From: a virus
Length of the DNA: 42,935 nt
IMG/VR virus record: IMGVR_UViG_3300047322_000582
Span: 1-42,935 of that record
Reading direction: 5' to 3' (one strand)
Positions 12,818 to 42,852 of this stretch are shown piece after piece. Position 1 is the first letter of the stretch. Every line of letters starts with the position of its first letter. The notes beneath the pieces were generated by a model. That model saw nothing but the letters and a program-made list of their open reading frames with translations, was not told the DNA's origin and ran no database searches. Both the position numbers and the translations under genes were made by a program.

Positions 12818-13363
12818 ATGAGCGCAGTGAGCACAGGTGCGGTGATCGAGAAACTGAGCTATTCGCACAAGGCGATGATTGACCTGCTGGTTGCGAATCC
12901 GATGATTAGCCAGGGGGAACTGGCGAAGGCGTTCGGATACACGCAGGCGTGGATTAGCCGCATTCTCCGATCGGATAGCTTCCGGGAAATGCTCGCGTCG
13001 AGGACCGCCGAGATGGTGGACCCCTTGGTGCTCCAGTCAATAGAGCTAAGATTCGAGGCGCTGGTGACACAGAGCCTGGATATACTGCAGGAGAAACTGG
13101 AGCGATCAGCAATGCCCACGGCCGACCTGGCGCTCAAGGCCGCGGAACTCGGCTCCCGTGCCCTGGGGTATGGTGCCAAAGTCGGGAATGTACATATGCA
13201 AGGCAACTTCGTCGTGGCTATGCCAGAGAAGGCGGCAAATTCCGAGGAGTGGCTGAGCAGATTAGCAGGCACGAGCAAATACTCCGGCGGTTCACAGCGT
13301 TCGCGGGTGATTGACGTCCCGGCCGCTTCAGCGGAATGTCGTGGCAGTGATGCTGGAGAGTAA
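12818..13363 (+). CDS. terS: Terminase small subunit
   Basis: The 181-aa protein has an N-terminal helix-turn-helix (ISQGELAKAFGYTQAWISRIL) typical of DNA-recognising terminase small subunits, then a long helical oligomerisation region (VLQSIELRFEALVTQSLDILQEKLE). It directly precedes the large terminase gene. I chose ATG 12818, with AAGGA seven bases upstream, because the promoter at 12761-12789 would place transcription start downstream of the other candidate ATG at 12785. That earlier ATG has AGGAGG nine bases before it and remains possible. The stop overlaps the terL start. Confidence 0.82.
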   Translation: MSAVSTGAVIEKLSYSHKAMIDLLVANPMISQGELAKAFGYTQAWISRILRSDSFREMLASRTAEMVDPLVLQSIELRFEALVTQSLDILQEKLERSAMPTADLALKAAELGSRALGYGAKVGNVHMQGNFVVAMPEKAANSEEWLSRLAGTSKYSGGSQRSRVIDVPAASAECRGSDAGE

Positions 13364-14858
13364 TCCCAGTGGGCAGCAGATCATCTGGGAGCCACAGCCA
13401 GGACCGCAAACGGCGCTTATTGAGTGTCCGACGTTTGAGGTACTATACGGAGGAGCTAGAGGTGGAGGGAAAACGGAAGGGTCGATTGGGGACTGGCTCG
13501 AGCACTCCGGGAGGTACGGGCAAAGCGCTGTTGGAGTCTTCTTCCGGCGGAAATTTAAGCAGCTGGAAGAGGTGGTGGCGCGGACTAAGGAGCTATTTCC
13601 GAGGCTGGGGGCGAAGTACAACGAGCAAAAAGCGGAATGGGTGATGCCCGGCGGTGGGCGGCTGAAGTTTAGATACCTGGAAAAGGATAAAGATGCAGAA
13701 GAATACCAAGGACACAGTTATACCCGGGTATACGTTGAAGAAGTCACGAACTTTCCTACTCCCGCGCCGATCAATCTACTGCGCGCAACGCTGCGATCGT
13801 CCGCAGGAGTGCAGGTGGGGATGCGTCTTACTGGGAATCCCGGCGGCCCCGGGCACCACTGGGTTAAAGCGAGGTTCATAACTCCAGACCCGAGAGGGTG
13901 GAGGATACTGAAGGAGGATTATGAGGGACTGAACGGGGAGAAACTGACGCTTGAGAGAGTGTTCATTCCAAGCAAGATCGCGGATAATGTGCTGCTGCTT
14001 AGGAATGATCCATTCTACATAGCGCGGCTGAGGCAAAGTGGGAGTGAAGCGCTGGTTCGTGCGTGGTTGGAAGGCAATTGGGACCTGGTGGACGGAGCGT
14101 TTTTTGATTGTTGGGATGAAACCAAGCACGTTCTGGATACTGGCGACTGGCTTTCTCGTATTCCTTATTATTCTCTTCGTTTTCGTAGTTTTGACCATGG
14201 TTATGCAAAGCCGTTCTCCGTCGGCTGGTACGCAGTCAGCGATGGGACTTGGGGACTGCCTGAAGGGGCGTTGCTCAAGTATAGGGAATGGTACGGGACA
14301 AATGGAAAGCCGAATGAAGGACTGAGAATGACGGTGGACCTGGTCGCGAAGGGGGTACTGCAGAGGGAAGTGACGCTGGATAGCAAGACCGGGAACTATA
14401 AAGAGGAGAATGTACTGTACGGGGTCGCGGACCCGAGTATCTTTATCAGGGATGGCGGGCCGAGCATTGCAGAGACGATGGGGGCAGCGAGATGCCAATG
14501 GAGGCGGGGAGACAACAAGCGCGTGCCTGGCTGGGCAGAGATGAGACGGAGGCTGAACGGGGAGGGGGGAAGACCACTTCTGTATTTCTTGAGCTGCTGC
14601 GACGACTCGATACGAACGATACCTACACTGCAAGTGGACCAAACGGACCCGGAGGACTTGGATACAGAGGGCGAGGATCATGCAGCGGATGAGACGAGGT
14701 ATGCTTGCATGGCCCGGCCTTGGGTGAAGGGGCAACCGGAAGAGAGCAGGATTGTGTATCCGAAGACGCCGGATCAAATGACGCTGAATGAGATTCTGGA
14801 GCAGCACTTTCGGCATAGAAGGCAGGAGAGGGAAGAAGGAGCGTATTCGAATGACTAA
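13350..14858 (+). CDS. terL: Terminase large subunit
   Basis: ATPase-nuclease motor of about 502 aa that packages DNA. Walker A is YGGARGGGKT (near residue 33-42), and Walker B with catalytic Glu is RVYVEEVTNF. The C-terminal RNase H-like nuclease shows acidic residues in SFDHGYAKPF, GVADPS and DHAADETRY. ATG 13350 overlaps the terS end by 14 bp and has no strong ribosome site, so translational coupling is likely. The frame stays open back to a TTG at 13311. Confidence 0.93.
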   Translation: MLESNPSGQQIIWEPQPGPQTALIECPTFEVLYGGARGGGKTEGSIGDWLEHSGRYGQSAVGVFFRRKFKQLEEVVARTKELFPRLGAKYNEQKAEWVMPGGGRLKFRYLEKDKDAEEYQGHSYTRVYVEEVTNFPTPAPINLLRATLRSSAGVQVGMRLTGNPGGPGHHWVKARFITPDPRGWRILKEDYEGLNGEKLTLERVFIPSKIADNVLLLRNDPFYIARLRQSGSEALVRAWLEGNWDLVDGAFFDCWDETKHVLDTGDWLSRIPYYSLRFRSFDHGYAKPFSVGWYAVSDGTWGLPEGALLKYREWYGTNGKPNEGLRMTVDLVAKGVLQREVTLDSKTGNYKEENVLYGVADPSIFIRDGGPSIAETMGAARCQWRRGDNKRVPGWAEMRRRLNGEGGRPLLYFLSCCDDSIRTIPTLQVDQTDPEDLDTEGEDHAADETRYACMARPWVKGQPEESRIVYPKTPDQMTLNEILEQHFRHRRQEREEGAYSND

Positions 14859-14902: not shown

Positions 14903-17464
14903 ATGAGTGATCCGCTGCGCGAACTGCAAATGGCTGACCGGGCGGAGCACCCGCGGGTTAAATTCTGGAGGCAAGAGCTCGAGAACGCGCAGAAAAGGGA
15001 GAAAAAGTTCCGGCGAGAAGCACTGCGGGTAGTGGAGATTTACGAAGGGGAAAAAAGGCAAGAAAATAGCTTTAATGTCCTGTTCTCTAATACAGAGACG
15101 CTTCTTCCAGCGTGTTATAATCAACTTCCCCGGCCGTACGTCGATCGACGATTTAAGGATGAGGATCCTCTAGGAAAAGCCGCTGCTCAGTGTCTTGAGC
15201 GCACGCTCAGCTCGCTAGAAGATAGCGGGAGCGCGGAGTATCAACCATTTGGGACCTTGATGGAGCAGGCGGTGCTCGGCGCGCTGGTTCCCGGGCGGGG
15301 ACTGACGTGGTTCAAGTACGATGCTGAGTTTGAATCCAGCGAGCAAGGCGAGAAAAGCGCTGATACGGAGAAAAGCGCGGAACAGAAAAACGCTGATTTA
15401 CCGGAGGATGCCGATGAGACCGCCAAGCAAGCGCAACGGGATACAGAAGGGGAAGAGATACTTGAGACTCCCCAAGAGAAGGTTAAGTACGAGACGATCT
15501 GCGGGGAAGATGTTGACTATGATTCGTTCTGCTTCGGGCCCGGAAGGCAATGGGTAAATGTGCCCTGGGTGGCGAGATACCACCTGATGACGGAGGCGGA
15601 CGCGGTTGCGAGCTTTGGGAAGAAGATTGCCAGCAAGCTGAAGTATCAGACGGCGACCAAGATCAATGTTGATGGCTGGAAAAAGGAGAATAGCGAGGAG
15701 CAGGACCCGCAGGGCACACAGCATGTGAGTCCGGTGTGGGAGATCTGGAATAAGGAGAAAAAGGAGGTACACTTTTACTCCCCGAGTTACCCCGACGACC
15801 TGCTGAAGACAGTGGAGGATCCGTATGGGCTGAGTGGGTTCTTTCCTTGCCCGGAGCCACTGCATTTTCTACTAAAGCGGAGCACGTTGGTGCCGACGCC
15901 GCTTTATATCCTGTACGAGGAGCAGGCGAAGGAGCTGAACCGCATCACGACGAGGATTAATAAGATACTGGGCGCCCTCAAAGTGCGGGGCTTCTACGAC
16001 GGCACGATGCAGGGGCTGAAAAACCTGCTCGAAGCGGACGATAACACGCTCCTACCGGCGGAGAACGTCGCGGCGCTGCAGCAGGGGCAGAATCTGCAGA
16101 ATAGCGTGTGGTTCATGCCCTTTGAGGTGCTTGTGAGCGCGTTGCAAGCACTGTGGCAAGGCCGGGAGGAGATAAAGGACACGATTTATGAAATTACTGG
16201 CATGGCGGACATTATGCGCGGGGAAGGCGCCGCCAGTGCTCCCGCCACGCTGCAGCAAATTAAGAATCAGTGGGGTACACTGAGACTGAAGAGGTGGCAG
16301 CGCTATGTTCAAGAGTATGTACGCTCGTGCCTGCGCATTATGGGAGAGCTTGCGGGCAAGCATTTCTCGATTAATACCCTTGCGACGATTACCAACCTCG
16401 ACTTCGCTAAGCCGGAGGACATTAAGAGAGCGCAACAAACGCTGAGAGCGATAAATCAGCAGATGATGCAGATGCAGCAGCAGGCACAACAACAAGCGGC
16501 GATGCAGCCTCAACAAGGTCCCCCCGGTCCACCCGGCGGCTCTCCCCAGCCTCCAGGCGCTGCTCCTGTCGCGCCTCCGGGTGCTCCCGCGGGTCCCGCT
16601 GCACCGCCGCCCCCTCTACAGCCTACTCCGGAGATGCAGCAGGGGATGGAGCAGGCGCAGGCAGTACTGCAGAAACCGGCGTGGGATGACGTGGTGAAAC
16701 TCCTGCGGAATGACATGCTGCGGAGTTACCGGATCGACATTGAGACTAACTCCACGATCGCATCAGATACGCAGGAAGACAAGGACAATGTTAGCGATGC
16801 GCTGACAGGGATTAGTCAGATGCTGCAGAGCTTTGCCCCGATGGTACAGCAAGGCGTGCTGACCATGCCGGTGATGAAGACGATTCTGCTGACGACTGTG
16901 AGGAAGTTCGCATTTGGCAGGGAGTGCGAGGATGCGATTAAGCAGATGCCGGATCAAGCTCCGTCGCCTCCACCGGACCCAAGCGCTCCGTCGCCTGAGG
17001 AACTGGATGCGAAGAAACAGGAAGCAAACGTCAAGATTCAAGTAGCGCAGAGCAAGCTGCAACTCGCCGGGATGGAGGGGCAGCAGGCACAACAGGACCT
17101 GCAAGTGAAGGCGCAGGAGAGCCAAATGAAGATGGCACAGGCGCAGCGGGATGAGCAGCTAGCGCAGCAACAGCATCAAGTGAAGCTGGCGCAGATGGAC
17201 CTGCAGATGCAAGAGATCGCGATGAAGAAGCAAGTAGCACAGATGACCCTGCAGCAGAAGCAACAGGAACTGGCACTGAAAGGCCAGGGGATGATGATGG
17301 ATGCACAAGCGGATAGGATGCAGCAGGGACTGCAGATGGAGACTGCGCAGATGGGAGCCCGGACGGCAGAGACGCTGGCGAGGACGCAGGTGCAAACCGC
17401 GCAAACGAAGGCGAAGGCAGCGAAACAGGCTGCAGCAGCAAGACCGAAGGGAAATGGGAGTTAA
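14903..17464 (+). CDS. Portal protein with long Pro-rich and Gln-rich coiled-coil C-terminus
   Basis: The 853-aa protein follows terL, as expected for the portal. The N-terminal half has portal-like features (NSFNVLFSNTETLLPACYNQ, TLMEQAVLGALVPGRG, the ELNRITTRINKILGA helix, TGMADIMRGEG). Residues about 533-580 are a Pro/Gly/Ala linker. Residues about 700-840 are a Gln/Ala/Met-rich helix resembling the barrel domain of podovirus portals. The length is at the high end. GAGGTG precedes the ATG. Confidence 0.85.
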   Translation: MSDPLRELQMADRAEHPRVKFWRQELENAQKREKKFRREALRVVEIYEGEKRQENSFNVLFSNTETLLPACYNQLPRPYVDRRFKDEDPLGKAAAQCLERTLSSLEDSGSAEYQPFGTLMEQAVLGALVPGRGLTWFKYDAEFESSEQGEKSADTEKSAEQKNADLPEDADETAKQAQRDTEGEEILETPQEKVKYETICGEDVDYDSFCFGPGRQWVNVPWVARYHLMTEADAVASFGKKIASKLKYQTATKINVDGWKKENSEEQDPQGTQHVSPVWEIWNKEKKEVHFYSPSYPDDLLKTVEDPYGLSGFFPCPEPLHFLLKRSTLVPTPLYILYEEQAKELNRITTRINKILGALKVRGFYDGTMQGLKNLLEADDNTLLPAENVAALQQGQNLQNSVWFMPFEVLVSALQALWQGREEIKDTIYEITGMADIMRGEGAASAPATLQQIKNQWGTLRLKRWQRYVQEYVRSCLRIMGELAGKHFSINTLATITNLDFAKPEDIKRAQQTLRAINQQMMQMQQQAQQQAAMQPQQGPPGPPGGSPQPPGAAPVAPPGAPAGPAAPPPPLQPTPEMQQGMEQAQAVLQKPAWDDVVKLLRNDMLRSYRIDIETNSTIASDTQEDKDNVSDALTGISQMLQSFAPMVQQGVLTMPVMKTILLTTVRKFAFGRECEDAIKQMPDQAPSPPPDPSAPSPEELDAKKQEANVKIQVAQSKLQLAGMEGQQAQQDLQVKAQESQMKMAQAQRDEQLAQQQHQVKLAQMDLQMQEIAMKKQVAQMTLQQKQQELALKGQGMMMDAQADRMQQGLQMETAQMGARTAETLARTQVQTAQTKAKAAKQAAAARPKGNGS

Positions 17465-17910: not shown

Positions 17911-18999
17911 ATGGCTGGAGAGACCGAGGGTACGGGCACGGAAGGCATGACCGGGGCAGATGACGGGCTGAGTGTCGAGGAAACGGTCAATGACCTGGCG
18001 GAGAGCCTGCATCTGGTAGAGGAGCAGGCGGAGGGAAAGGGAAATGAGCAAGGTGAAGCATCGACTCAAGATGGTGCGGCTCCCCCGGCAGGCACCGAGC
18101 AGGAATCGACAGAGGGTGCTGCCCCGGCGGCGGCAGAGCAAGGCGCGGCTCCGGTTGCTCCTCCCACGGCGGACGAGCGAGTACCGGATACTTGGAGGCC
18201 AGAGGCTCAAGCGAAGTGGGCCACTGTCGACCCGGTGGTGCGAGCGGAGATTGCGAAGCGTGAGCAGGATGTAGCCCGCTTCGTAGGGGAAGCAACTCCC
18301 GCGATCAACATTGCCAAGGCGGTGACGAAGACCTTTGAGCCATACCTGCCAATGCTGCAGCGCTATGGCATCGACCCAATAGTACACATTTCAAGGTTAC
18401 TGGAGGGGCATACGCTACTGCTCTTCGGGGACCCACAGACTAAAGCTCAAATGGCTCGGAATCTGATCCAAAGTGCCGGGATTGACATCCAAGCGCTTGC
18501 ATCAGACCCCAACTCCACAGCGCAAGCGAATAACCAACAGCTTGGTTATATCCGCGCGCTGGAGGAGCGTTTGGCCCGCATGGAGACTGGGGTGACTGGC
18601 GTTACCTCTACGATCCAGGAAGCGAGAGAAGCCGAACTCTCGCAAGGGATAACGGCCTTTGCAAGTGATACCGAGAACCACCCGTTCTTCTGGGAAGTCG
18701 CCAATACTGGTGAGATAAAGGCTCTCATTGATAGTGGCGCAGCTCGGACACTGAGTGACGCATATGAGCTTGCAGTGCTGAAGAATCCAGTCACGCGGGC
18801 CAAGCAGCTCGCACTGGATTCCAAGAGGCAGGCCGAGGCGGCAGCAACGGCGAACGCAGCGAAGTCTGCTGCGGCGCGGAAGGCTACGAGCGCGAACGTC
18901 AAGTCAAGAGGAAGCGGGCGCCTAGCGCCGGCGGAAGAAACCATCGACGAGACGCTTCGCACTACCTTGAGCGACATTCACGCAAGAGCACCCCACTGA
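17911..18999 (+). CDS. Putative scaffolding protein
   Basis: The 362-aa protein is acidic and Ala/Glu/Gly-rich over the first 85 residues. It then has VPDTWRPEAQAKWATVDP and IAKREQDVARF helices typical of phage scaffold-type proteins placed just before the capsid gene, and a basic C-terminal tail (KSRGSGRLAP). Scaffolds guide capsid assembly and leave the head. The call is based on position, composition and the WRPEAQAKW segment. Confidence 0.75.
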   Translation: MAGETEGTGTEGMTGADDGLSVEETVNDLAESLHLVEEQAEGKGNEQGEASTQDGAAPPAGTEQESTEGAAPAAAEQGAAPVAPPTADERVPDTWRPEAQAKWATVDPVVRAEIAKREQDVARFVGEATPAINIAKAVTKTFEPYLPMLQRYGIDPIVHISRLLEGHTLLLFGDPQTKAQMARNLIQSAGIDIQALASDPNSTAQANNQQLGYIRALEERLARMETGVTGVTSTIQEAREAELSQGITAFASDTENHPFFWEVANTGEIKALIDSGAARTLSDAYELAVLKNPVTRAKQLALDSKRQAEAAATANAAKSAAARKATSANVKSRGSGRLAPAEETIDETLRTTLSDIHARAPH

Positions 19000-19006
19000 G
19001 GACCAA

Positions 19007-19987
19007 ATGGCAAGCCCAAACGCAACCTTCACGGAACTGGTCAGCACGACCTTCCGGCGGCACGGAAAGAAGTTCATCGACAATGTGTCGAAGAACAACG
19101 CTTTCCTGGCCTGGATTACTCGGAACAACGAGATCACGACTGTGGCTGGGGGGCTTACGATCGTCAAGCCCCTCGACTACAACAGCAACAGTACCTATCA
19201 ACGGTACAGCGGGTATGATGTGCTGAACGTGGCGCAGAGCGACGTGCTGACAAGCGCGGAGTACCCGTGGCGCCAGATCGCGATCAACGTCGTCGCCAGC
19301 GGCCTGGAAATGCGCATCAACAAGGGCGACACGCAGATCATCGCGCTGGTGAAGTCCCGGATCAAGAACGCGATTCGGACGTTCAAGAACAACTTCAGCG
19401 TCGACCTCTACTCCGACGGCACGCTGCCGAATCAGATCACCGGGCTGCAGGCGCTGGTGGCGGACGCCGGGACTGGAACGGTGGGCGGGATCGATAGCGG
19501 CACGTGGCCATTCTGGGCGAACACGGTGCAGAGCGCTGCGGCGCCGTTGCAGGGTGGTGGCGCGATCGTGCCAAGTGGGACAACGATGGAGTCGTTAATG
19601 CTGCCCCTGTGGCTGCAACAAGTCCGGGGGGACGACAAGCCCAACTTGATCGTCGCGTCGAACGACTACTACACGTTCTACGAGCAGTCGCAGACGAGCA
19701 TCAAGCGCTATACCGGCGACAACCCACATAACCAGGCGACTGGGGGATTCCTCTCCCTGAAATACAAGTCCGCCGATGTTGTGTTCGACGGCGGGAGTGG
19801 GATCCCAGCAGCGCACATGTACTTCCTCAACACGGACTACTTCGATCTGACCGTGCATGAGGATGCGAACATGACGGTGCTGGATCAGGTCCATCCGTTC
19901 AACCAAGATGCAGCGGTCATCCCGGTGCTCTGGATGGGCAATACCACGCTGTCCAATCGGCGCCTGCAAGGAGTGCTCAAGGCGTAA
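19007..19987 (+). CDS. Major capsid protein
   Basis: The 326-aa protein follows the scaffold gene by 7 bp with a GAGG site. N-terminal FTELVSTTFRRHGKKFIDNVSKNNAFLAWI, a central INKGDTQIIALVKSRIKNAIRTF helix and C-terminal HMYFLNTDYFDLTVHEDANM and DAAVIPVLWMGNTTLSNRR segments match the HK97-fold major capsid family seen in environmental podoviruses. No protease or cleaved delta domain is evident. Confidence 0.9.
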   Translation: MASPNATFTELVSTTFRRHGKKFIDNVSKNNAFLAWITRNNEITTVAGGLTIVKPLDYNSNSTYQRYSGYDVLNVAQSDVLTSAEYPWRQIAINVVASGLEMRINKGDTQIIALVKSRIKNAIRTFKNNFSVDLYSDGTLPNQITGLQALVADAGTGTVGGIDSGTWPFWANTVQSAAAPLQGGGAIVPSGTTMESLMLPLWLQQVRGDDKPNLIVASNDYYTFYEQSQTSIKRYTGDNPHNQATGGFLSLKYKSADVVFDGGSGIPAAHMYFLNTDYFDLTVHEDANMTVLDQVHPFNQDAAVIPVLWMGNTTLSNRRLQGVLKA

Positions 19988-20071
19988 CATAACGGGGGCC
20001 GGATACAGAGCGATATCGTGATCCACAATCCCCGGCCGCTTTAGCGGAACGTATTTCTTAAGGAGCTTGAA

Positions 20072-20773
20072 ATGCCTGGATACGCACCAGTTCATCCCCT
20101 TGCAGGAATGGGGCCGGTCACAGATATCATGGTGCCCGACACCACGCAGAAGTTTCAGGCGGGGACGGTGATCGACGCAGTAGATCCGTACTTTGGGTTC
20201 GGGCGGTTCGTGTACCTGCAGGCTGGGGCAGCATACGACCCCGGCGTGCTGGTCACAGTTGTGGACCAAACGTTTCTGACGGCAGTGCTCGCGACGACGG
20301 CGAACCTGGGGACGAGCTTCTATGTCGTCCGCCAAGTTATGTCGGCGGTCAACGTGTGGGGCTGGTTCCAGTTCGAGGGGATCTGCCCAGTGCGCGTGGA
20401 CACCGGCGTGGCCGCGGGCGCTGCAATCGGGATCGGCACGACGGCAGGCCGGGCGACCACGAACGCAGCGGGCAAGCAACTGCTCGGCGTGCGCGTGCTG
20501 CAGCCGGCGACGTTCACGCTCACGAAGACGGGTACGACTTACAACGGGACCAAGTTCATCGACGTGAGTAACGTGGATGGGCTGTTCAAGGGCCTGGCGG
20601 TGAGCGGCACGGGGGTGGCAGCGGGAACGGTTGTTACGCTGGATCCTGGCGGGACGCGCATCGCAGTGAGCGCGAACTCAACAGCCAGTGGCACGGTCAC
20701 GGTGACGTTTACCTGGACTGGGTACAACATGCTGATGATTCAGAATCCGCTCACGCAAGGGGCTATTACCTAG
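20072..20773 (+). CDS. Putative capsid decoration/head accessory protein
   Basis: The 233-aa protein comes directly after the capsid gene. It is rich in Gly, Thr, Val and Ala with a beta pattern. The C-terminal third (KGLAVSGTGVAAGTVV then SGTVTVTFT) looks like an Ig-like or beta-sandwich insert often seen in head-decoration and tail proteins. AGGAG precedes the ATG. Decoration function is inferred from position and fold pattern. Confidence 0.6.
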   Translation: MPGYAPVHPLAGMGPVTDIMVPDTTQKFQAGTVIDAVDPYFGFGRFVYLQAGAAYDPGVLVTVVDQTFLTAVLATTANLGTSFYVVRQVMSAVNVWGWFQFEGICPVRVDTGVAAGAAIGIGTTAGRATTNAAGKQLLGVRVLQPATFTLTKTGTTYNGTKFIDVSNVDGLFKGLAVSGTGVAAGTVVTLDPGGTRIAVSANSTASGTVTVTFTWTGYNMLMIQNPLTQGAIT

Positions 20774-20777
20774 CCTT

Positions 20778-20829
20778 CGACGCAGGCGGTAAGTTTCGGG
20801 CTGTGAGGGCCAAGGGGCGGCGCCCGAAA
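20778..20829 (+). repeat. Intergenic 26-bp repeat with hairpin, copy 1
   Basis: CGACGCAGGCGGTAAGT followed by TTCGGGCTG (20778-20803) recurs at 21148-21173 with four differences. In this copy an 8-bp stem forms between 20794-20801 and 20822-20829. It sits between the decoration-like gene and the Gp49-like gene. Confidence 0.75.
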
Positions 20830-20858
20830 GACCGTCCCATAACGAAGGAGTAGATGAG

Positions 20859-21155
20859 ATGAATGATAGAGAGCTGGACAAAGCGATTGCCGAGAGGTCT
20901 TATCCGAAGGTGACTAAGGAGGGAATCGAGGCGAAGGTGGAGAGAGTAAGTTACATGGTGCTGCCGGATAGCACTGTGACGATTTGTAACTTGCTGCTGA
21001 AGAACGGGTTTAGCGTCAGGGGTGAGTCAGCCTGCGTCGATCCACGGAACTTTAACATGGAGATCGGGCAGCAGCTGGCGTATCGAGACGCCTTCTCGAA
21101 GATGTGGCAGCTGGAGGGGTATTTGCTGGCTGAGAAGCGTAACTCTCCGACGTAG
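20859..21155 (+). CDS. N4 Gp49/Sf6 gene 66 family protein (98 aa)
   Basis: Shows the family signature: NLLLKNGFSVRGESACVDP, FNMEIGQQLAYRDAF and KMWQLEGYLLAEK, with a variable charged N-terminus. The family is small, of unknown function, and common in unrelated phages. GAAGGAG precedes the ATG. Both flanks carry the 26-bp repeat, so the gene is bracketed by a repeated structured element. Confidence 0.85.
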   Translation: MNDRELDKAIAERSYPKVTKEGIEAKVERVSYMVLPDSTVTICNLLLKNGFSVRGESACVDPRNFNMEIGQQLAYRDAFSKMWQLEGYLLAEKRNSPT

Positions 21156-21199
21156 GCGGTAAGTCTCTGGCTGCGGAGCGGCGCCATTAAGTCCGCTCC
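21148..21199 (+). repeat. Intergenic 26-bp repeat with hairpin, copy 2
   Basis: Second copy of the 26-bp repeat (21148-21173), overlapping the stop of the Gp49-like gene. It is followed by a 7-bp stem (21175-21181 with 21193-21199) just before the PEP-CTERM gene. Confidence 0.75.
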
Positions 21200-21217
21200 G
21201 ATTGACTGGGGAATAGA

Positions 21218-22057
21218 ATGAAGCTTAGACGAAACCTGGTGGCTTTGGCGATGGCAGCGCTCGCGGGCAGTGCGCAAGCGAGTTTGTGTGTGCTCGGGAC
21301 GGTGGATTCGACCTGCACGTTCAGCACGGATACGAGCGGGGGCACGACGCTTTACACGAACCCGAGCAACCTGAGTAACATCGGGTCCGGGGAGATCAAT
21401 CCGTTCCTGGGCACGCAGGTTGGCGGGAACGGGGGCACGGAGTTTGGGGTCAATACAGACCAGGCGAGTGTGAACCTGCTGCCGCTGGATGACAAGCGGG
21501 ACAATGCAAATACCTTCACCGAGACGATGAGTCTGGATCAACTCGGCTTCGTGACGATCGGGGGAGTGGATTACTTCGATTTCTTCCTCGATATTAACGA
21601 GCCGAACAACGATCCGGCGAGGTTCCTGTCAATTGACAGGCTGGCGATCTTCGGTCAGACCGGTGCAACGCCGGGAGCGGCAGTGGATCTGAACAGCACC
21701 AACATCACGTCGCTGGCGGACGTCGATGTGTTTCCGAATCTGGACATCGTCTACAGGTTGGGGATCACCAACAGCTTGATCCTGGACTACAGCCTGTTCG
21801 CGGGCAGTGGCCTCGGCTACGACCTCTCGTTATTGATTCCGACTAGCCTGTTCAGCAGTCTCGACCCGAACAGCCGCATCGTGTTCGCCGTGCAGTATGG
21901 CGGTGCGGACTTCGCCGGGGCACTGGCGCAGGATGGGTTCGAGGAGTGGGCATTTCTGCCCGGTGCAGGCCCGCGAGCCGTTCCCGAGCCAGGTTCGCTA
22001 GCACTGCTTGGTTCTGGCCTGATTGGCTTTGGCTTGATTCGGCGCAAGCGTAGTTGA
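21218..22057 (+). CDS. PEP-CTERM sorting-domain exported protein carried by the phage
   Basis: The 279-aa protein has a signal peptide (MKLRRNLVALAMAALAGSAQA, cleavage near 21-22). It has a Gly/Thr/Asn/Asp-rich extracellular-type middle and a clear PEP-CTERM tail: VPEPGS (255-260), a hydrophobic span and RRKRS at the end. In bacteria such proteins are exported by Sec and processed by a membrane exosortase, often for matrix or surface display. It sits among head genes, is bracketed by the repeated hairpin element upstream and a strong terminator downstream, and has no structural role I can see. It looks like host-derived cargo (a moron), perhaps altering the infected cell's surface. Confidence 0.88.
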   Translation: MKLRRNLVALAMAALAGSAQASLCVLGTVDSTCTFSTDTSGGTTLYTNPSNLSNIGSGEINPFLGTQVGGNGGTEFGVNTDQASVNLLPLDDKRDNANTFTETMSLDQLGFVTIGGVDYFDFFLDINEPNNDPARFLSIDRLAIFGQTGATPGAAVDLNSTNITSLADVDVFPNLDIVYRLGITNSLILDYSLFAGSGLGYDLSLLIPTSLFSSLDPNSRIVFAVQYGGADFAGALAQDGFEEWAFLPGAGPRAVPEPGSLALLGSGLIGFGLIRRKRS

Positions 22058-22063
22058 TATTCT

Positions 22064-22102
22064 CCCCGAGGGGCTCTTACCCTCCCCCTCGGGGACCTTT
22101 TT
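22064..22102 (+). terminator. Rho-independent terminator after the PEP-CTERM gene
   Basis: A perfect 10-bp GC-rich stem (22064-22073 with 22085-22094), 11-nt loop, then ACCTTTTT. It would end or reduce transcription before the tail genes resume at 22114. Confidence 0.88.
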
Positions 22103-22113
22103 AGGAGCAGGGC

Positions 22114-22827
22114 ATGGAACAAGTGCAACCGTTTATCGGAATTCAGGCTCCACGGATTCCGTTTATTCGCTTTGAGCAGCGGCCGGTGGAAAAGAGGACG
22201 GAAACCGGGGAACTGCGGTACGAGGACACGGACTTTGCGCTCATAACGGCGCAAGGAAGCAAGGACACGACGGAGAAGATCTGGAAGGAATGGATTCCCC
22301 AGATCAAGCGGGCAGCCGCGGACGGAATGTACCCGCCAGGCTGGATTCCCCGCTTCGAGGAGATGTACAAGATCTGGAAAGAGACGAACGCGGATCCTGT
22401 GATGGGGACGCCGGTGAAGAACTGGCCGGCGATCAGTCCCGCGGAGTGCAAGATCCTGCTGTTTGCGGGGGTACGGAGCATCGAAGATCTGGCGGAGGCG
22501 AACGAGGAGTGGATGGGCAAGATTGGGATGGGGGCCAGGCGGTTGAAGCAGCTCGCAATTGACTGGATTTCGGCGAACCAGGCCCAGGGACCCCTCGTGG
22601 CGCAGTTGGACACCCTGCGGCAGACAGTTGAGGCGCAGGGACAGCAAATTAAGGCCCTGATGGAAGCGAACGCGAGCCTGGCGCGAGAGGCAACGGAGGC
22701 CAAGCAAGCGAGCGTGGGCTCGAGGTTTCCAGTCGGCATGCCCTCCCCCGAGGATCGGCTGGCGGACGTTCGGGACAGCAGCAACGCGGATGAGGCTGAA
22801 GCCCTCGACGACATACTGAAGAGCTGA
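22114..22827 (+). CDS. Virion-block protein with helix-hairpin-helix-like segment (237 aa)
   Basis: I do not recognise a named family. The middle (CKILLFAGVRSIEDLAEANEEWMGKIGMGARRLKQLA) looks like a SAM/HhH-type helical unit. Residues about 165-205 are a coiled coil (QLDTLRQTVEAQGQQIKALMEANASL) and the C-terminus is acidic. AGGAG precedes the ATG and the gene ends one base before the adaptor gene. It may be a head-completion or scaffold-like protein. Confidence 0.6.
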   Translation: MEQVQPFIGIQAPRIPFIRFEQRPVEKRTETGELRYEDTDFALITAQGSKDTTEKIWKEWIPQIKRAAADGMYPPGWIPRFEEMYKIWKETNADPVMGTPVKNWPAISPAECKILLFAGVRSIEDLAEANEEWMGKIGMGARRLKQLAIDWISANQAQGPLVAQLDTLRQTVEAQGQQIKALMEANASLAREATEAKQASVGSRFPVGMPSPEDRLADVRDSSNADEAEALDDILKS

Positions 22828-22828
22828 C

Positions 22829-23548
22829 ATGGCCGAGAAAAACCTTCTCCAGATCGTGCAGGACTTTTGCAAGCGGGTGGGGTTGCCTGTTCCCCCGGTT
22901 GCCGCGGGCTCTGGAGACGACACTACGGTGCAGGTTGTAGCCCTCCTGAATGAGGGTATCCAGGAGATCTGTGATAGGTACGCGCTGCAGCAGTTAATGA
23001 CCCGCTGGAACTTCACCCATGCAAATGGCACAGATTTCCTGGCGCTGGATCTAAAGGCTGGGGCCTCAGACTGGAAGTACAACGCTCCGCTCACGATCTG
23101 GAATACGGCGACCCGGCTGCCTCTGCGAGGACCGGCGACTATTCAAGAGTGGCAGCAGATCATCGTGATGACGGTGGCTCCAGCCGTCTACACCTACACC
23201 CTATACGGGGATGCGATAAGGATTTATCCGGTTCCGGGAGATATTCCTGGAACTGTCTTCTCCTTTTTCTACCAGTCCAAGTGCGGAGTCACCGACGGAT
23301 CTGCCCTGTTCGAGACCTACGAAGAGGACAGTTACACCCCCCGGCTCCCTACTTACCTGATTGAGGCGGACCTCAAGTGGCGGTGGAAAAAGGAAAAGGG
23401 ACTGCCTTATGCTGAGGACTTTCGCACCTGTGAATCCATGCTGGTGGACGCAGTAGGACGGACGCCGAATCCAGTACTGAATCTTGATTCCGGGGATAAA
23501 CAGTACCTGCCGGGGATCTTCGTGTCGCCAGGTAGCTGGAATCTCTAA
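22829..23548 (+). CDS. Head-tail adaptor protein (podovirus type)
   Basis: The 239-aa protein has an N-terminal helical region (LLQIVQDFCKRVGLP, LLNEGIQEICDRYALQQLM), a beta-rich centre (YTYTLYGDAIRIYPVPGD, TVFSFFYQSK) and a C-terminal helix (YLIEADLKWRWKKEKGLPYAEDF). This order is typical of podovirus adaptor/tail-tubular-A-like proteins that bind below the portal. The next gene is the nozzle-like protein, supporting the call. Confidence 0.75.
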   Translation: MAEKNLLQIVQDFCKRVGLPVPPVAAGSGDDTTVQVVALLNEGIQEICDRYALQQLMTRWNFTHANGTDFLALDLKAGASDWKYNAPLTIWNTATRLPLRGPATIQEWQQIIVMTVAPAVYTYTLYGDAIRIYPVPGDIPGTVFSFFYQSKCGVTDGSALFETYEEDSYTPRLPTYLIEADLKWRWKKEKGLPYAEDFRTCESMLVDAVGRTPNPVLNLDSGDKQYLPGIFVSPGSWNL

Positions 23549-25116
23549 TGCGGCAGCCTACACAGGACTCCATCCCCCGCGACCGCGGAGGGACTAGCCA
23601 TGCCACGCATGCCGGCGCTCCCGTTGGAGGACTGAATACCCGCGACTCAGTCGTCCATATGGACGCCCGCGATGCACTGGTGCTGGATAACTGGTTCCCG
23701 CAGGCCAGTGAGGTGTGGCAGCGAGGTGGATATACTTCCTTTGCTACGGGCATGACCGGGATTATTAAGGCGCTGGCTAGCTACAACGTACCTAGCGGAG
23801 CGGATCAGTTTCTCGCGTTCACCGACGCGGGAGCTTATGATATTACCGCCGGTGGTGCTATCGGCGGGATTATGACGGGAAGTGCCCTCACTAATGGTTA
23901 TGTTCAGACACTGAACTTCACCAACAGCGCCGGGGATTCATTTCTATGGATCTGTAATGGGGTTGACACGCCCAAGTACTATGATGGAGCAGCATGGACA
24001 CCTGCGGCAATAACTGGCCTTATTGCTGCTGATATAGTCCAGTCCTGGATATTCAAGCATCGAATCTGGTTCATCGAACAGAATACGATGAACGCCTGGT
24101 ACCTGCCGATTGACTCAATTCAGGGCGAAGCGACGCAGTACCCGATGGGGAACTTGTTCCGTCGGGGTGGATATCTGGTAGCGGGAACGAACTGGACCCT
24201 CGATGGAGGCGATGGACCGGATGATGCGCTGGTGCTGATTACCAGCGAGGGGGAATTAGCCGTGTTTCAAGGCACGGACCCCAATAGCGCATCAGCATGG
24301 GCCCTATCTGGAATCTTCTATGTTGGGAAACCCGCCGGTAGGAAGTGCTTCTTCAAGCTCGGGGGAGACGTCGGGCTGATCACGGAAAGTGGTATTTATC
24401 CGCTGTCGCGGGCCTTGCAGCTCGGGTCGATGAACTTCGCTGCAGCACTGAGTAACAAGATTCAGCCCAGTGTGTCGGCGGCGGTGGCTATCAGTGGACC
24501 ATATGCGAAGGGATATGAAGGCTGCGTGTATCCCAAGACAAATGCGCTGATCGTGAACATGCCAAACGTAGCGACTGGTAAGGCTACCCAGTTCGTTATG
24601 AACACGATTACCGGCCAGTGGTGTACGTTCTCCGGGTGGAGTGCTACCTGCTTCGAAGTCTTTCAGGGACAGCTATACTTCGGTGATGCCACTGGGGCAG
24701 TACAAAAGGCTTGGACAGGGGTAAGCGACGCTGGCGCGGCAATTACTGCTACCGTATATCAAGCCTACCAGTACTTTGGCTCCTCAGCGCGGATGAAGAA
24801 GGTAAGGTTACTGCGATTCCTGATGGAATACGATGGTTCGCTGGACATAAAGTGGGCTATCTCCGCGGATTACAGTAACGTAAACATAAACTCCTTTTCC
24901 CCAGGTGGGGGAAGCCCCTCCTGTGCGGTTTGGGACGTGTCGGACTGGGATACCAGCTGGTGGTGCCTGGATGTGAACAGGAAAAAGCAGTGGCGAGCAG
25001 CCTTTCATACCCCGGGCTACGCATTGAGCCTGCGTATGATTACCTCTGGCCTTACCAGTGATCCAGTAAAGTGGGCAGGAACGGACTTTATCGTTGATCC
25101 GGCGGGGATGATGTGA
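23548..25116 (+). CDS. Tail nozzle/stabilisation-like protein
   Basis: The 522-aa protein has N-terminal APVGGLNTRD, MDARDALVLDNWFP and WQRGGYTSFATG, a layout shared by phage nozzle/stabilisation proteins. Many beta repeats follow (FLAFTDAGAYDIT, FLWICNGVDTPKYYDG, LVLITSEGELAVFQGTDP), consistent with a beta-propeller. It starts with a TAATG overlap with the adaptor gene. Position and fold pattern support a role in closing the short tail. Confidence 0.75.
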   Translation: MRQPTQDSIPRDRGGTSHATHAGAPVGGLNTRDSVVHMDARDALVLDNWFPQASEVWQRGGYTSFATGMTGIIKALASYNVPSGADQFLAFTDAGAYDITAGGAIGGIMTGSALTNGYVQTLNFTNSAGDSFLWICNGVDTPKYYDGAAWTPAAITGLIAADIVQSWIFKHRIWFIEQNTMNAWYLPIDSIQGEATQYPMGNLFRRGGYLVAGTNWTLDGGDGPDDALVLITSEGELAVFQGTDPNSASAWALSGIFYVGKPAGRKCFFKLGGDVGLITESGIYPLSRALQLGSMNFAAALSNKIQPSVSAAVAISGPYAKGYEGCVYPKTNALIVNMPNVATGKATQFVMNTITGQWCTFSGWSATCFEVFQGQLYFGDATGAVQKAWTGVSDAGAAITATVYQAYQYFGSSARMKKVRLLRFLMEYDGSLDIKWAISADYSNVNINSFSPGGGSPSCAVWDVSDWDTSWWCLDVNRKKQWRAAFHTPGYALSLRMITSGLTSDPVKWAGTDFIVDPAGMM

Positions 25117-40431: not shown

Positions 40432-42852
40432 TCATTTACAGTCACCCCATGATTTAGCTGATGTTTTAATGCTAAGGGGGATAACCAGTGGGTCGTCGTA
40501 GGGAACCGAAACCCGCTTGGCTATGTCCAGTATCTGTGCCTTGTACAGTACGGCGATGTTGCTGGGAAACTGCCCTGCCAGGGAATCATGCACCTGGAGT
40601 AGCACCTGAACGTCGGGAAGCTGGTGATAGACGTTCAGCCAAATCTGGTTGATGAAGTGGCCTACAGTTGACTGAGGAACCCATGCGATGGCCTCGGGAA
40701 GTTCCGCGTCGATACGATCAAAACTGTATCGCCGGAATCCAAAGCGATTGTCGACATACTTGTGTGTCTTGAGCTGTGCAGCAACCCTCTCGTGCCACCG
40801 CTTGATACCGGGATGAATACTGAACCATCGAAGTTGGAATCGTTCAACTTCATGATAGGGGATTCCGAAATTTGCAGAAACAGTACGTGCGCTTCCGACA
40901 TAGTTAGTGGCATGTACCACCTGTCGTGTAATTTGACGCTTAGCATAGTACTTTGCCTTAGTCTCTGGAAAATTCGGGTGGGTTTCCAGTAACTCATCAT
41001 CGCTGATGGGCAGGTTGTAGACCGCCCGGGCGCTGTGCAAGTGAATGTCTACCCTTCGACGTAATGCGGACTTCAAATCCTCGTCATCAGCTTCCCACGC
41101 CACCACCTGTAAATCCGCTCGGTCCAGGTCGCAGTCGAAGAAGGTAAAACCGGGGTCAGGAATGAAGAGTGTTTTAACATTAGGAAGTTGCAGTGCATCG
41201 ACGTCTTCGGAGGCGTCCCCTCCGGCGGGAATATTCTGAAGATTAAGTCCAGAATCAAACGCATTTTTGGAGGAGGAGAGTCGCAGCGTAGACGTACCTG
41301 CAATGTTATAAGAACATCGGAGTCGCGAGTCTCGATCGAGCCTTGCACCAACGAAGGTAGAAAGGAAAACTCCGAGCGATCGGTATTCACGGATGTTCCT
41401 TATGAGTGGACGAAGGATAGGCTCTCGGACCGCGATCTTTTGCAGGGCCTCATCGTCAAGCGTGACCTCGTGGGACTTGCGGGAGATGATTTCCCGCTGC
41501 TTGAAGTCCCCGTAGAATAGGTTGCGCATCTGCAGGGGGGAGCGTGGGTTAAGTGCATGACCAAGGATCTTGATGAACCACGCTTCACGCTGGCTGATTT
41601 CGTCCTGGAGTTCGAGGGCGAATTCGCTCCGCCTTTCCGTGTCCACCCGCACCCCTCGGATCATTGCCTGTAATACAGGCCAGAACATAGCCTGCTGGAA
41701 GTCGCTCTGCGTCCGCAACCCCAGCTTGTCTACGGTTTTCTGGATGTTTTCATCGCACTCGAAGGTGATGACACAGTCTTTGCAGTTATACGCCCAGAGC
41801 TGGTCCTCACCCGTTTTCCTGTCCCAGTTCTTGCCCTCGGCTTTCCAGTAGACATGCTTTTCGCAATACATGCTTGATAGGTAGTCAAGTCCCTTAGGAA
41901 GTGTAGTAAAGCAGCTGTGATGCCCAAGCATTGTATCTCGGTCAAACCGAGGGGAAAAGCCCCAGTGTCGCCAGAAGTACTGCGTGTCGTAGATAAAGTT
42001 CTGTCCCACAACCCTAGCGTTTCGATGAGTAAGGACCTTTCGAAGGAGAATGATAACAGCAACTTCCTCCTCTGGAAGCCAGTACCCTTCAGGCCGTTCA
42101 ACACACATGAACGGGATGCAGAGAGCACTTTGTTTATCGCGAGCGATGCCGACGCAGGCAATGTGGCCCGACCTGGTTTCGATGTCACAAGCGAGAGTCG
42201 TGGGGCCGGTTTCGAGGACTTCAAGGCATTTCTCCAGGTAGGAAAAAACTGTAGAATAACTGGGGCGCAATAAAAACGAATACTCGGACCCCGTAATTGT
42301 GTCAGTCGCTATCTCCCCTTTCGCCCTGCGCAGGTCCTGTACGCTTATGTTTCTTGCGCTCCAGTCGCGCATGATATATGCCGGGTGGTAGACCGGGATC
42401 ACCTTGGGTGACCGTGAAGATGACAGCCCTTCCGTGGACAGTAAGCTTCCCCGCCAGGACTTTATCCCCCATTTCCCGGTCAAAGCCCACATGGACACAT
42501 TTCCAAAGGCCACGATAACATTGGGCTTCACCATATCTATTTCCGCCTGCAGGAGCTGGAAGCCCGCCAGCACGATTGGTTTGACCATCTTGTCCCGCAT
42601 CGGGACCATGTCCTCTGTGATTCGCTTCTTGACTTTTGGAATCCATAGCTCTATATCGTTCCCCGGGGGTTGATCTCTGCAGACGTTGGTGAGAAAGCAC
42701 TCGCTGCGCATGATGCCAGCTTCGTGCAGTAGGTCGTTTAAGAGCTGCCCGCTGGCACCCACGAAAGGTTCCCGGCGGCGCATCTCTACTTCCCCCGGCG
42801 CTTCGCCAACCAGCATGATGCGCGCGGGGACTGGACCGGAGGGTGGGATCAT
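40432..42852 (-). CDS. Uracil-DNA glycosylase-family A DNA polymerase fusion (replicase)
   Basis: An 806-aa fusion. Residues 1-185 are a family 4/5-type UDG (GEAPG 16-20, PFVGASG 29-35, HPAY 156-159). About 215-380 are a 3'-5' exonuclease (DIE at 223-225, D289, D359). About 385-806 are a family A polymerase: motif A FFDCDLDRADLQ (D575), O-helix R639/R643/H647/Y651, motif C QVHDSL (H755-D756). By alignment to E. coli Pol I, the steric-gate Glu is Asp (D580), Lys758 is Arg (R643), Phe762 is His (H647) and Glu883 is Ser (S757). It replicates phage DNA and may scan for uracil. The ATG (42852) overlaps the upstream gene by ATGA. Confidence 0.92.
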   Translation of the reverse strand: MIPPSGPVPARIMLVGEAPGEVEMRRREPFVGASGQLLNDLLHEAGIMRSECFLTNVCRDQPPGNDIELWIPKVKKRITEDMVPMRDKMVKPIVLAGFQLLQAEIDMVKPNVIVAFGNVSMWALTGKWGIKSWRGSLLSTEGLSSSRSPKVIPVYHPAYIMRDWSARNISVQDLRRAKGEIATDTITGSEYSFLLRPSYSTVFSYLEKCLEVLETGPTTLACDIETRSGHIACVGIARDKQSALCIPFMCVERPEGYWLPEEEVAVIILLRKVLTHRNARVVGQNFIYDTQYFWRHWGFSPRFDRDTMLGHHSCFTTLPKGLDYLSSMYCEKHVYWKAEGKNWDRKTGEDQLWAYNCKDCVITFECDENIQKTVDKLGLRTQSDFQQAMFWPVLQAMIRGVRVDTERRSEFALELQDEISQREAWFIKILGHALNPRSPLQMRNLFYGDFKQREIISRKSHEVTLDDEALQKIAVREPILRPLIRNIREYRSLGVFLSTFVGARLDRDSRLRCSYNIAGTSTLRLSSSKNAFDSGLNLQNIPAGGDASEDVDALQLPNVKTLFIPDPGFTFFDCDLDRADLQVVAWEADDEDLKSALRRRVDIHLHSARAVYNLPISDDELLETHPNFPETKAKYYAKRQITRQVVHATNYVGSARTVSANFGIPYHEVERFQLRWFSIHPGIKRWHERVAAQLKTHKYVDNRFGFRRYSFDRIDAELPEAIAWVPQSTVGHFINQIWLNVYHQLPDVQVLLQVHDSLAGQFPSNIAVLYKAQILDIAKRVSVPYDDPLVIPLSIKTSAKSWGDCK

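Follow-up and report, generated by a model that had tools for sequence, protein, structure and literature searches.

A PEP-CTERM protein encoded behind the capsid gene of a podovirus-type phage, with relatives in phages of several architectures

The phage studied here encodes a PEP-CTERM protein among its virion genes, and related proteins are carried by phages of several other architectures. The window, by which we mean the whole stretch of DNA that was analysed, is a linear IMG/VR record (IMGVR_UViG_3300047322_000582) of 42,935 bases and unknown completeness from a podovirus-type phage. An earlier note had read the protein from the letters of the sequence, and that observation is correct. 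The surface-display role which it suggested is likely; the tail of the protein scores over the cut-offs of the models for such sorting signals.

Results

The gene (21218..22057, + strand) has an ATG start, encodes 279 amino acids and is matched by both models of the tail, TIGR02595 with 31.1 bits in a DNA-level search and 28.4 bits in a protein scan (cut-off 16), and PF07589 with 28.8 bits (gathering score 20.7). The profile match that the earlier note had proposed as a check is thus significant, and with both curated cut-offs exceeded its claim of a complete tail holds. TIGR02595 had no match in 14 control genomes. By eye and by hydropathy the N-terminus MKLRRNLVALAMAALAGSAQA looks like a signal peptide, with a basic start, a hydrophobic core and AQA, and residues 1-21 (21218..21280, +) form a putative Sec signal. 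They are followed by a passenger body of residues 22-254 (21281..21979, +), which is beta-rich in a model of low confidence and homologous to bacterial PEP-CTERM proteins, and by the sorting tail VPEPGSLALLGSGLIGFGLIRRKRS, residues 255-279 (21980..22054, +), which consists of VPEP, a hydrophobic helix and RRKRS.

No other model reached its own cut-off for the protein, and no PHROG family, virion families included, matched at E <= 0.1. Homology to the flocculation-associated PepA (NF033554) was rejected, at 15.6 bits against a cut-off of 80; the two share the type of tail, with 28 columns aligned, whereas the bodies do not align without it. Some relatives have weak full-length scores with the same model (up to 36.9 bits, cut-off 80), and a tail-trimmed comparison with PepA by hhalign covers 21 columns at the signal peptide only (probability 17). 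The THxN family (NF038125) was likewise dismissed, with 37.6 bits against 85 and the tail, residues 253-278, as the best stretch. The AlphaFold2 model is weak (pLDDT 66.2) and has a helix at 258-278; it had no match at E <= 0.001 in the PDB or in viral structure libraries, and a search of solved structures with the protein gave weak matches only, the best at E 0.19.

That the gene lies inside a block of virion genes, as had been claimed, is borne out by its neighbours. The terminase (13311-14858) and the portal (14903-17464) are followed by the major capsid protein (19007..19987, +; NF033394 capsid_maj_Podo, 314 bits), which would belong to a transcript that ends at the PEP-CTERM gene. Then come a virion structural protein (phrog_29386; 20072..20773, +), a gene of the gp49/gp66 family (PF13876; 20859..21155, +), the PEP-CTERM gene, a phrog_20268 protein (22114..22827, +) and an adaptor of SU10 type (22829-23548). 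The gene after the adaptor (23548-25116) is an amidase according to PHROG 5107, and this lysis label looks doubtful because MW202489.1 has a phage stabilization protein annotated at the matching position. Two fused genes were seen elsewhere on the complementary strand of the window, an 806-aa protein with a uracil-DNA glycosylase domain joined to a PolA-type DNA polymerase (40432-42852) and an N6/N4 DNA methylase joined to a ParB N-terminal domain (366-1751). There was no integrase among the 30 of 46 gene calls that were scanned with Pfam or PHROGs, and the phage is presumably lytic. A search with the capsid gene in 369 genomes gave one match, of 49%, and a host assignment was not obtained.

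Three contigs with other sample ids (L002, L003, L004) have an identical gene order around the PEP-CTERM gene and neighbours that are 99-100% identical, and a contig with a fourth sample id (L010), which begins inside the PEP-CTERM gene, has the same downstream genes as the window. Because these contigs repeat the order, the placement of the gene is not an artefact of assembly. At the DNA level L003 matches the window without a difference between the capsid gene and roughly position 21660; over 21720-22080 the identity drops to 72-83%, beyond that it is 85-100%, and residue 171 is the first to differ between the two PEP-CTERM proteins. The divergent stretch was probably donated by a related phage of the same gene order. 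Between the two phrog_20268 genes (22114-22827 in the window, L003:3118-3828) there are about 29 synonymous changes and one non-synonymous change, a ratio which points to strong purifying selection on that protein.

The gp49/gp66-family gene and the PEP-CTERM gene make up an insert between the phrog_29386 and phrog_20268 genes, in a slot (20773-22114) that we followed through relatives of the capsid gene. The best 80 of 597 viral loci in a capsid search, together with two of 12 isolate-type records, gave 82 loci, of which 80 had homologues of both the capsid and the next gene, and the length of the slot could be estimated in 63. It is at most 130 nt in 52 of these, negative estimates from partial alignments included, and longer in 11, and the PEP-CTERM gene fills it in L003 and L068 alone, both of the window's own species. 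The slot is variable in itself; nine of the 63 relatives have other gaps of 231-1482 nt, and longer slots are filled by a 458-aa ORF in L081 and a 150-aa ORF in L122. In the nearest other relative, L069 (capsid 89% identical), the slot is empty and 91 nt long, and it is empty also in L066 and L077 (61 nt in the latter). L070 has a capsid identical to that of the window, on a contig that ends before the slot. Among the 82 loci, TIGR02595 matched the records of L003, L068 and L077, and none of the other 79, many of which are fragments. The record of L077 (the same as L026) has a 70% identical protein elsewhere, close to the distal end of the late genes. Related phages thus keep the same protein in different places, which is the behaviour of a mobile accessory gene. 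Judging from this distribution, the gene is an accessory one that the phage has gained, as the earlier note had supposed in calling it a moron.

The same note had taken the terminator downstream for a part of the moron, and this did not stand. In the intrinsic terminator (22063..22103, +) a stem of 11 pairs (22063-22095) leads into CCTTTTTA, and the folding energy is ordinary for the composition (z -1.08; 32 of 200 shuffles do as well). In L069 the same terminator stands in the empty slot, with a local alignment score of 40 that none of 300 shuffles reached. For 44 of 80 relatives a hairpin of terminator type lies within the 140 nt that surround the next gene's start, whereas 29 of 1600 random stretches have one. 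In the lineage of the window the terminator thus predates the insertion, and the moron arrangement is half right; the insert is accessory, and the terminator belongs to the slot from before and was not brought along. The insert thus seems to have entered in front of an ancestral terminator, and the PEP-CTERM gene is probably the last gene of the capsid transcript, which this terminator would close. The three gaps that separate the capsid gene from the PEP-CTERM gene yielded no hairpin of terminator type. Across the phages that carry the gene, terminators follow seven of 14 copies, where 0.24 would be expected. The base composition, in which a moron would differ from its genome, does not set the gene apart (59.3% GC, the window 57.0%).

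The repeated hairpin that had been described upstream also stood in part. There are two copies of a repeated element, one before the gp49/gp66-family gene (20775..20803, +) and one before the PEP-CTERM gene (21145..21173, +), which are 86% identical, and the pattern matches twice in the window and never in 100 shuffles. The word hairpin is half right, because the copy before the PEP-CTERM gene folds no better than shuffles (z -0.85) and only the one before the gp49/gp66-family gene (z -2.1) folds better than most of them. The stretches that hold the repeat align with the slot of L069 at chance level (25 and 220 of 300 shuffles as good).

No promoter-like site of the sigma-70 type, which was the type covered by the scan, was found in 18900-23600 (mean of shuffles 1.4). 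Most proteobacterial PEP-CTERM genes have a common upstream site with a sigma-54 motif, according to PMC1569441. Unlike these, the window gene has no -24/-12 site that stands out, this being the part of the motif that was compared; the best candidate agrees with the consensus at 8 of 11 positions, which 21 of 200 mononucleotide shuffles also attain, and a sigma-54 promoter is unsupported for this gene. Sites of this type that at most 5 of 200 shuffles reached are present at three of the 14 loci (L006, L009 and L036; 0.35 loci expected), and sigma-54 may control the gene in some other phages.

Searches of viral contigs with the window protein gave 10 loci with the single sequence and 17 with an alignment, which included the 10 records. 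We call this family f1. TIGR02595 exceeded its cut-off in 20 of 20 viral records, which cover all 17 f1 loci and three records that were reached through a second family (f2, below). In isolate-type phage records the only match to the window protein had E 10, and f2 had none at E 0.01. The carriers are phages of several architectures. The portals of G004 and G005 belong to other families, and G005 also has a phrog_9 terminase and a phrog_10 capsid; a phrog_332 head-tail adaptor is present in G007 and a tape measure in G010, while G006 has a head-closure protein and matches to tail spikes; there are polymerases in L031 and L036, a phage helicase in L035, matches to tail fibres in L032 and L061, and a distant portal in L009. 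For L033, the one protein that was tried had no PHROG match. On two further viral contigs (L201:3-584, L202:1-537) there is another protein with a tail like that of PEP-CTERM proteins and a different body.

In an alignment of 14 phage proteins, from which the identical or truncated copies L002, L004, L010 and L034 were excluded, the mean pairwise identity is 0.96 for VPEP, 0.60 for the body, 0.41 for the hydrophobic span and 0.17 for the linker. The dN/dS of the body was 0.152, 0.056, 0.066, 0.053, 0.165, 0.098, 0.201, 0.075 and 0.416 in nine chosen pairs, i.e. 0.05-0.20 in eight and 0.42 in the ninth, with synonymous change near saturation in several, which also makes the values for the tail unreliable. 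These ratios suggest purifying selection on the body, and together with the conserved VPEP they make both the body and the PEP motif look as if they are kept for use.

Contigs of bacterial genomes contained 23 homologous loci when the alignment was used as query, and none with the single sequence. The nearest bacterial homologues are PEP-CTERM proteins, to which L037, L038 and others belong; the tail-trimmed profiles of phage and bacterial proteins align with probability 100 and E 1.2e-45, whereas the best segment identity is 39%. A branch (99/95) in a tree of 31 proteins separates the 14 distinct phage sequences, which form one clade beside L037 and L038. No NCBIfam model was over its cut-off for the five members of the L037/L038 family that were scanned. 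Matches to the profile were found in 86 of 399 genomes of the order of G111 and in 37 of 369 of the class of G098, counts in which at most six candidates per genome were scored and most of the matches listed cover the tail only.

Of the bacterial genomes with homologues, 21 were searched for the exosortase (PF09721) and 19 have it; L053 and L054, which come from the same isolate as L052, were omitted. The window protein has the layout of the PEP-CTERM/exosortase (EpsH) system, with a signal peptide as read by eye, a variable body, PEP, a hydrophobic span and a basic end. It differs in that its gene is encoded by a phage, and none of the 11 viral records tested has an exosortase; the enzyme of the host would therefore have to act.

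In three of the phages (G005:21654-22334, G006:3088-3807, G007:16634-17290) another PEP-CTERM gene, of the family f2, lies just upstream of f1, and G010 has a second PEP-CTERM gene that differs from f2. The family f2 was found in six viral records, and in the other three (L061, L063 and L064) the gene that follows it is of a third family, f3, instead of f1; both arrangements are two-gene cassettes. A comparison of G007 (f2 and f1) with L063 (f2 and f3) gives 88% identity across f2 and into the first codons of gene two, whose body is then unalignable, and 84% identity resumes at the V of VPEP and continues for about 600 nt. The 78 nt of the tail are 92% identical and the 60 nt before it 23%, and the two bodies have no significant similarity (E 1.9). 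With the flanks kept around an unalignable body, the whole passenger, signal peptide included, is thus different. In the pair G006 and L061 the tail is 81% identical, the sequence before it 23% and that after the stop 20% (ungapped), and on the 5' side a match of 78% stops within f2, before the f2 tail. The next-best pair of tails from truly different families, among those listed, is 71% identical. These comparisons argue that passenger bodies have been exchanged under a kept tail DNA in these other phages; since f1-f1 and f3-f3 comparisons align throughout, both pairs may reflect one older event.

Discussion

We hypothesize that the PEP-CTERM protein is a late surface protein that works through the sorting enzyme of the host. 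Its gene would be transcribed late, at the end of the capsid transcript, as the position, the outcome of the promoter scan and the age of the terminator suggest. The signal peptide would lead it out by the Sec route, and a host exosortase would recognise the PEP motif, after which the protein would end up at the surface or in the exopolysaccharide; we regard export and sorting, taken together, as likely. The displayed body would then mask or re-bind a surface polysaccharide or receptor, and would keep released progeny and rival phages from attaching to the dying cell or to what is left of it. This last step is drawn by analogy with exclusion lipoproteins of structural gene clusters, and our confidence in it is modest. 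The chain as a whole, in which a late, exported and host-sorted protein alters or masks the envelope or the exopolysaccharide and blocks re-adsorption or superinfection, is our tentative preference.

Cor and Llp are phage lipoproteins of superinfection exclusion. The mEpimmI lipoproteins belong here too; according to PMC11893012 they are encoded in structural clusters, occur as several sequence types and act against phages with the same receptor, though not against all of these. Like them, the window protein is an envelope-targeted phage protein from a structural cluster, where the gene varies in type between related phages; unlike them, it has a PEP-CTERM tail and no lipobox anchor, and it is known from sequence alone, whereas exclusion is known for mEpimmI. 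These lipoproteins are the closest working parallel, and because of this we rank masking of a receptor or polysaccharide first, with modest confidence, and a change of the matrix second. Against the exclusion step it counts that the analogues are lipoproteins of temperate phages and that one of them failed to exclude a phage with the same receptor. Against the surface chain as such it counts that the body is not PepA and has no significant match among solved folds, which leaves binding of exopolysaccharide putative, and that a presumably lytic phage which expresses the protein late has little time left in which it could be sorted and the surface changed.

The short time weighs also on the explanation that we place second, which we consider rather unlikely. 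The displayed protein would here cross-link or retain exopolysaccharide, and infected cells would stick to their neighbours or keep virions within the aggregate, so that the progeny meets hosts and exclusion is unnecessary. PEP-CTERM proteins stabilise cell-bound exopolysaccharide and mediate flocs in Aquincola and Zoogloea (PMC9850573 and PMC12188702). Overexpression of PepA in Aquincola shifted exopolysaccharide from soluble to bound (PMC9850573), which counts for the preferred chain too, and Nostoc that had lost its exosortase gene by deletion was impaired in polysaccharide adherence and biofilm formation (PMC12188702). The homology of the body to bacterial PEP-CTERM proteins speaks for such a role. 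The body is however not homologous to PepA, and several other PEP-CTERM proteins of Aquincola were tested without rescue of floc formation (PMC9850573).

An abundant late product could also saturate the exosortase and halt the display of the host's own PEP-CTERM proteins. The site after the capsid gene and before the old terminator suggests high late expression, and VPEP is the most constrained stretch of the protein, but for this purpose the tail alone would suffice, whereas the body is under apparent purifying selection in eight of nine pairs and bodies are exchanged rather than lost, which makes such a decoy very unlikely. Slightly less credible still is a structural part of the virion that is anchored in a membrane by its C-terminal helix and is not processed by an exosortase. 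The gene does sit among virion genes, but a signal peptide and a PEP motif would direct the protein out of the cytoplasm, where virions are assembled, its homologues are at other positions in other phages, and the PEP-CTERM model matches none of the other 79 capsid-relative records. The earlier note had named an anchor of a known virion family as what would speak against its reading, and the protein has no PHROG match and, once trimmed of its tail, resembles bacterial PEP-CTERM proteins. A host gene that was captured recently and does nothing for the phage, which the bacterial homologues and the accessory distribution might suggest, is the least probable explanation and is already disfavoured, given that the phage members form a clade of their own beside the bacterial sequences recovered, and given the purifying selection, the several types of phages and the exchange of cassettes.

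The exchange of bodies under a kept tail fits a display cassette, with a passenger that matches the surface to be changed. In a wider hypothesis, which we put forward with reservation, diverse phages of exosortase-positive bacteria would have interchangeable cassettes of this kind, with a tail fitted to the exosortase of the host and a passenger that is swapped. They would redecorate the exopolysaccharide coat by means of the host's sorting enzyme and so control adsorption, as a Gram-negative counterpart of the sortase-anchored conversion proteins.

The PEP-CTERM type of tail is already known. Carriage by several types of phages, an apparent reliance on an enzyme of the host, and the exchange of passengers with the tail kept are not described in the literature that we found. 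A phage-encoded PEP-CTERM protein was not met with in the collection searched, which is poor in subscription papers and bioRxiv, nor in the accessible portions of, among others, PMC12642866, PMC1569441, PMC4886054 and PMC3630121; the literature found holds no viral use of the exosortase system, and conversion of the surface by way of this sorting route is apparently unreported for phages there.

Few substrates of the exosortase system have been tested. Should phages rely on this system, their proteins would be natural substrates with a measurable phenotype, such as adsorption or plaque size. The exchange of passengers points to the tail by itself as a portable unit of sorting. A dependence on the exosortase would also give a host marker for uncultured phages, since display of the protein would require an exosortase-positive cell, and a new path by which infection could alter biofilm and floc structure.
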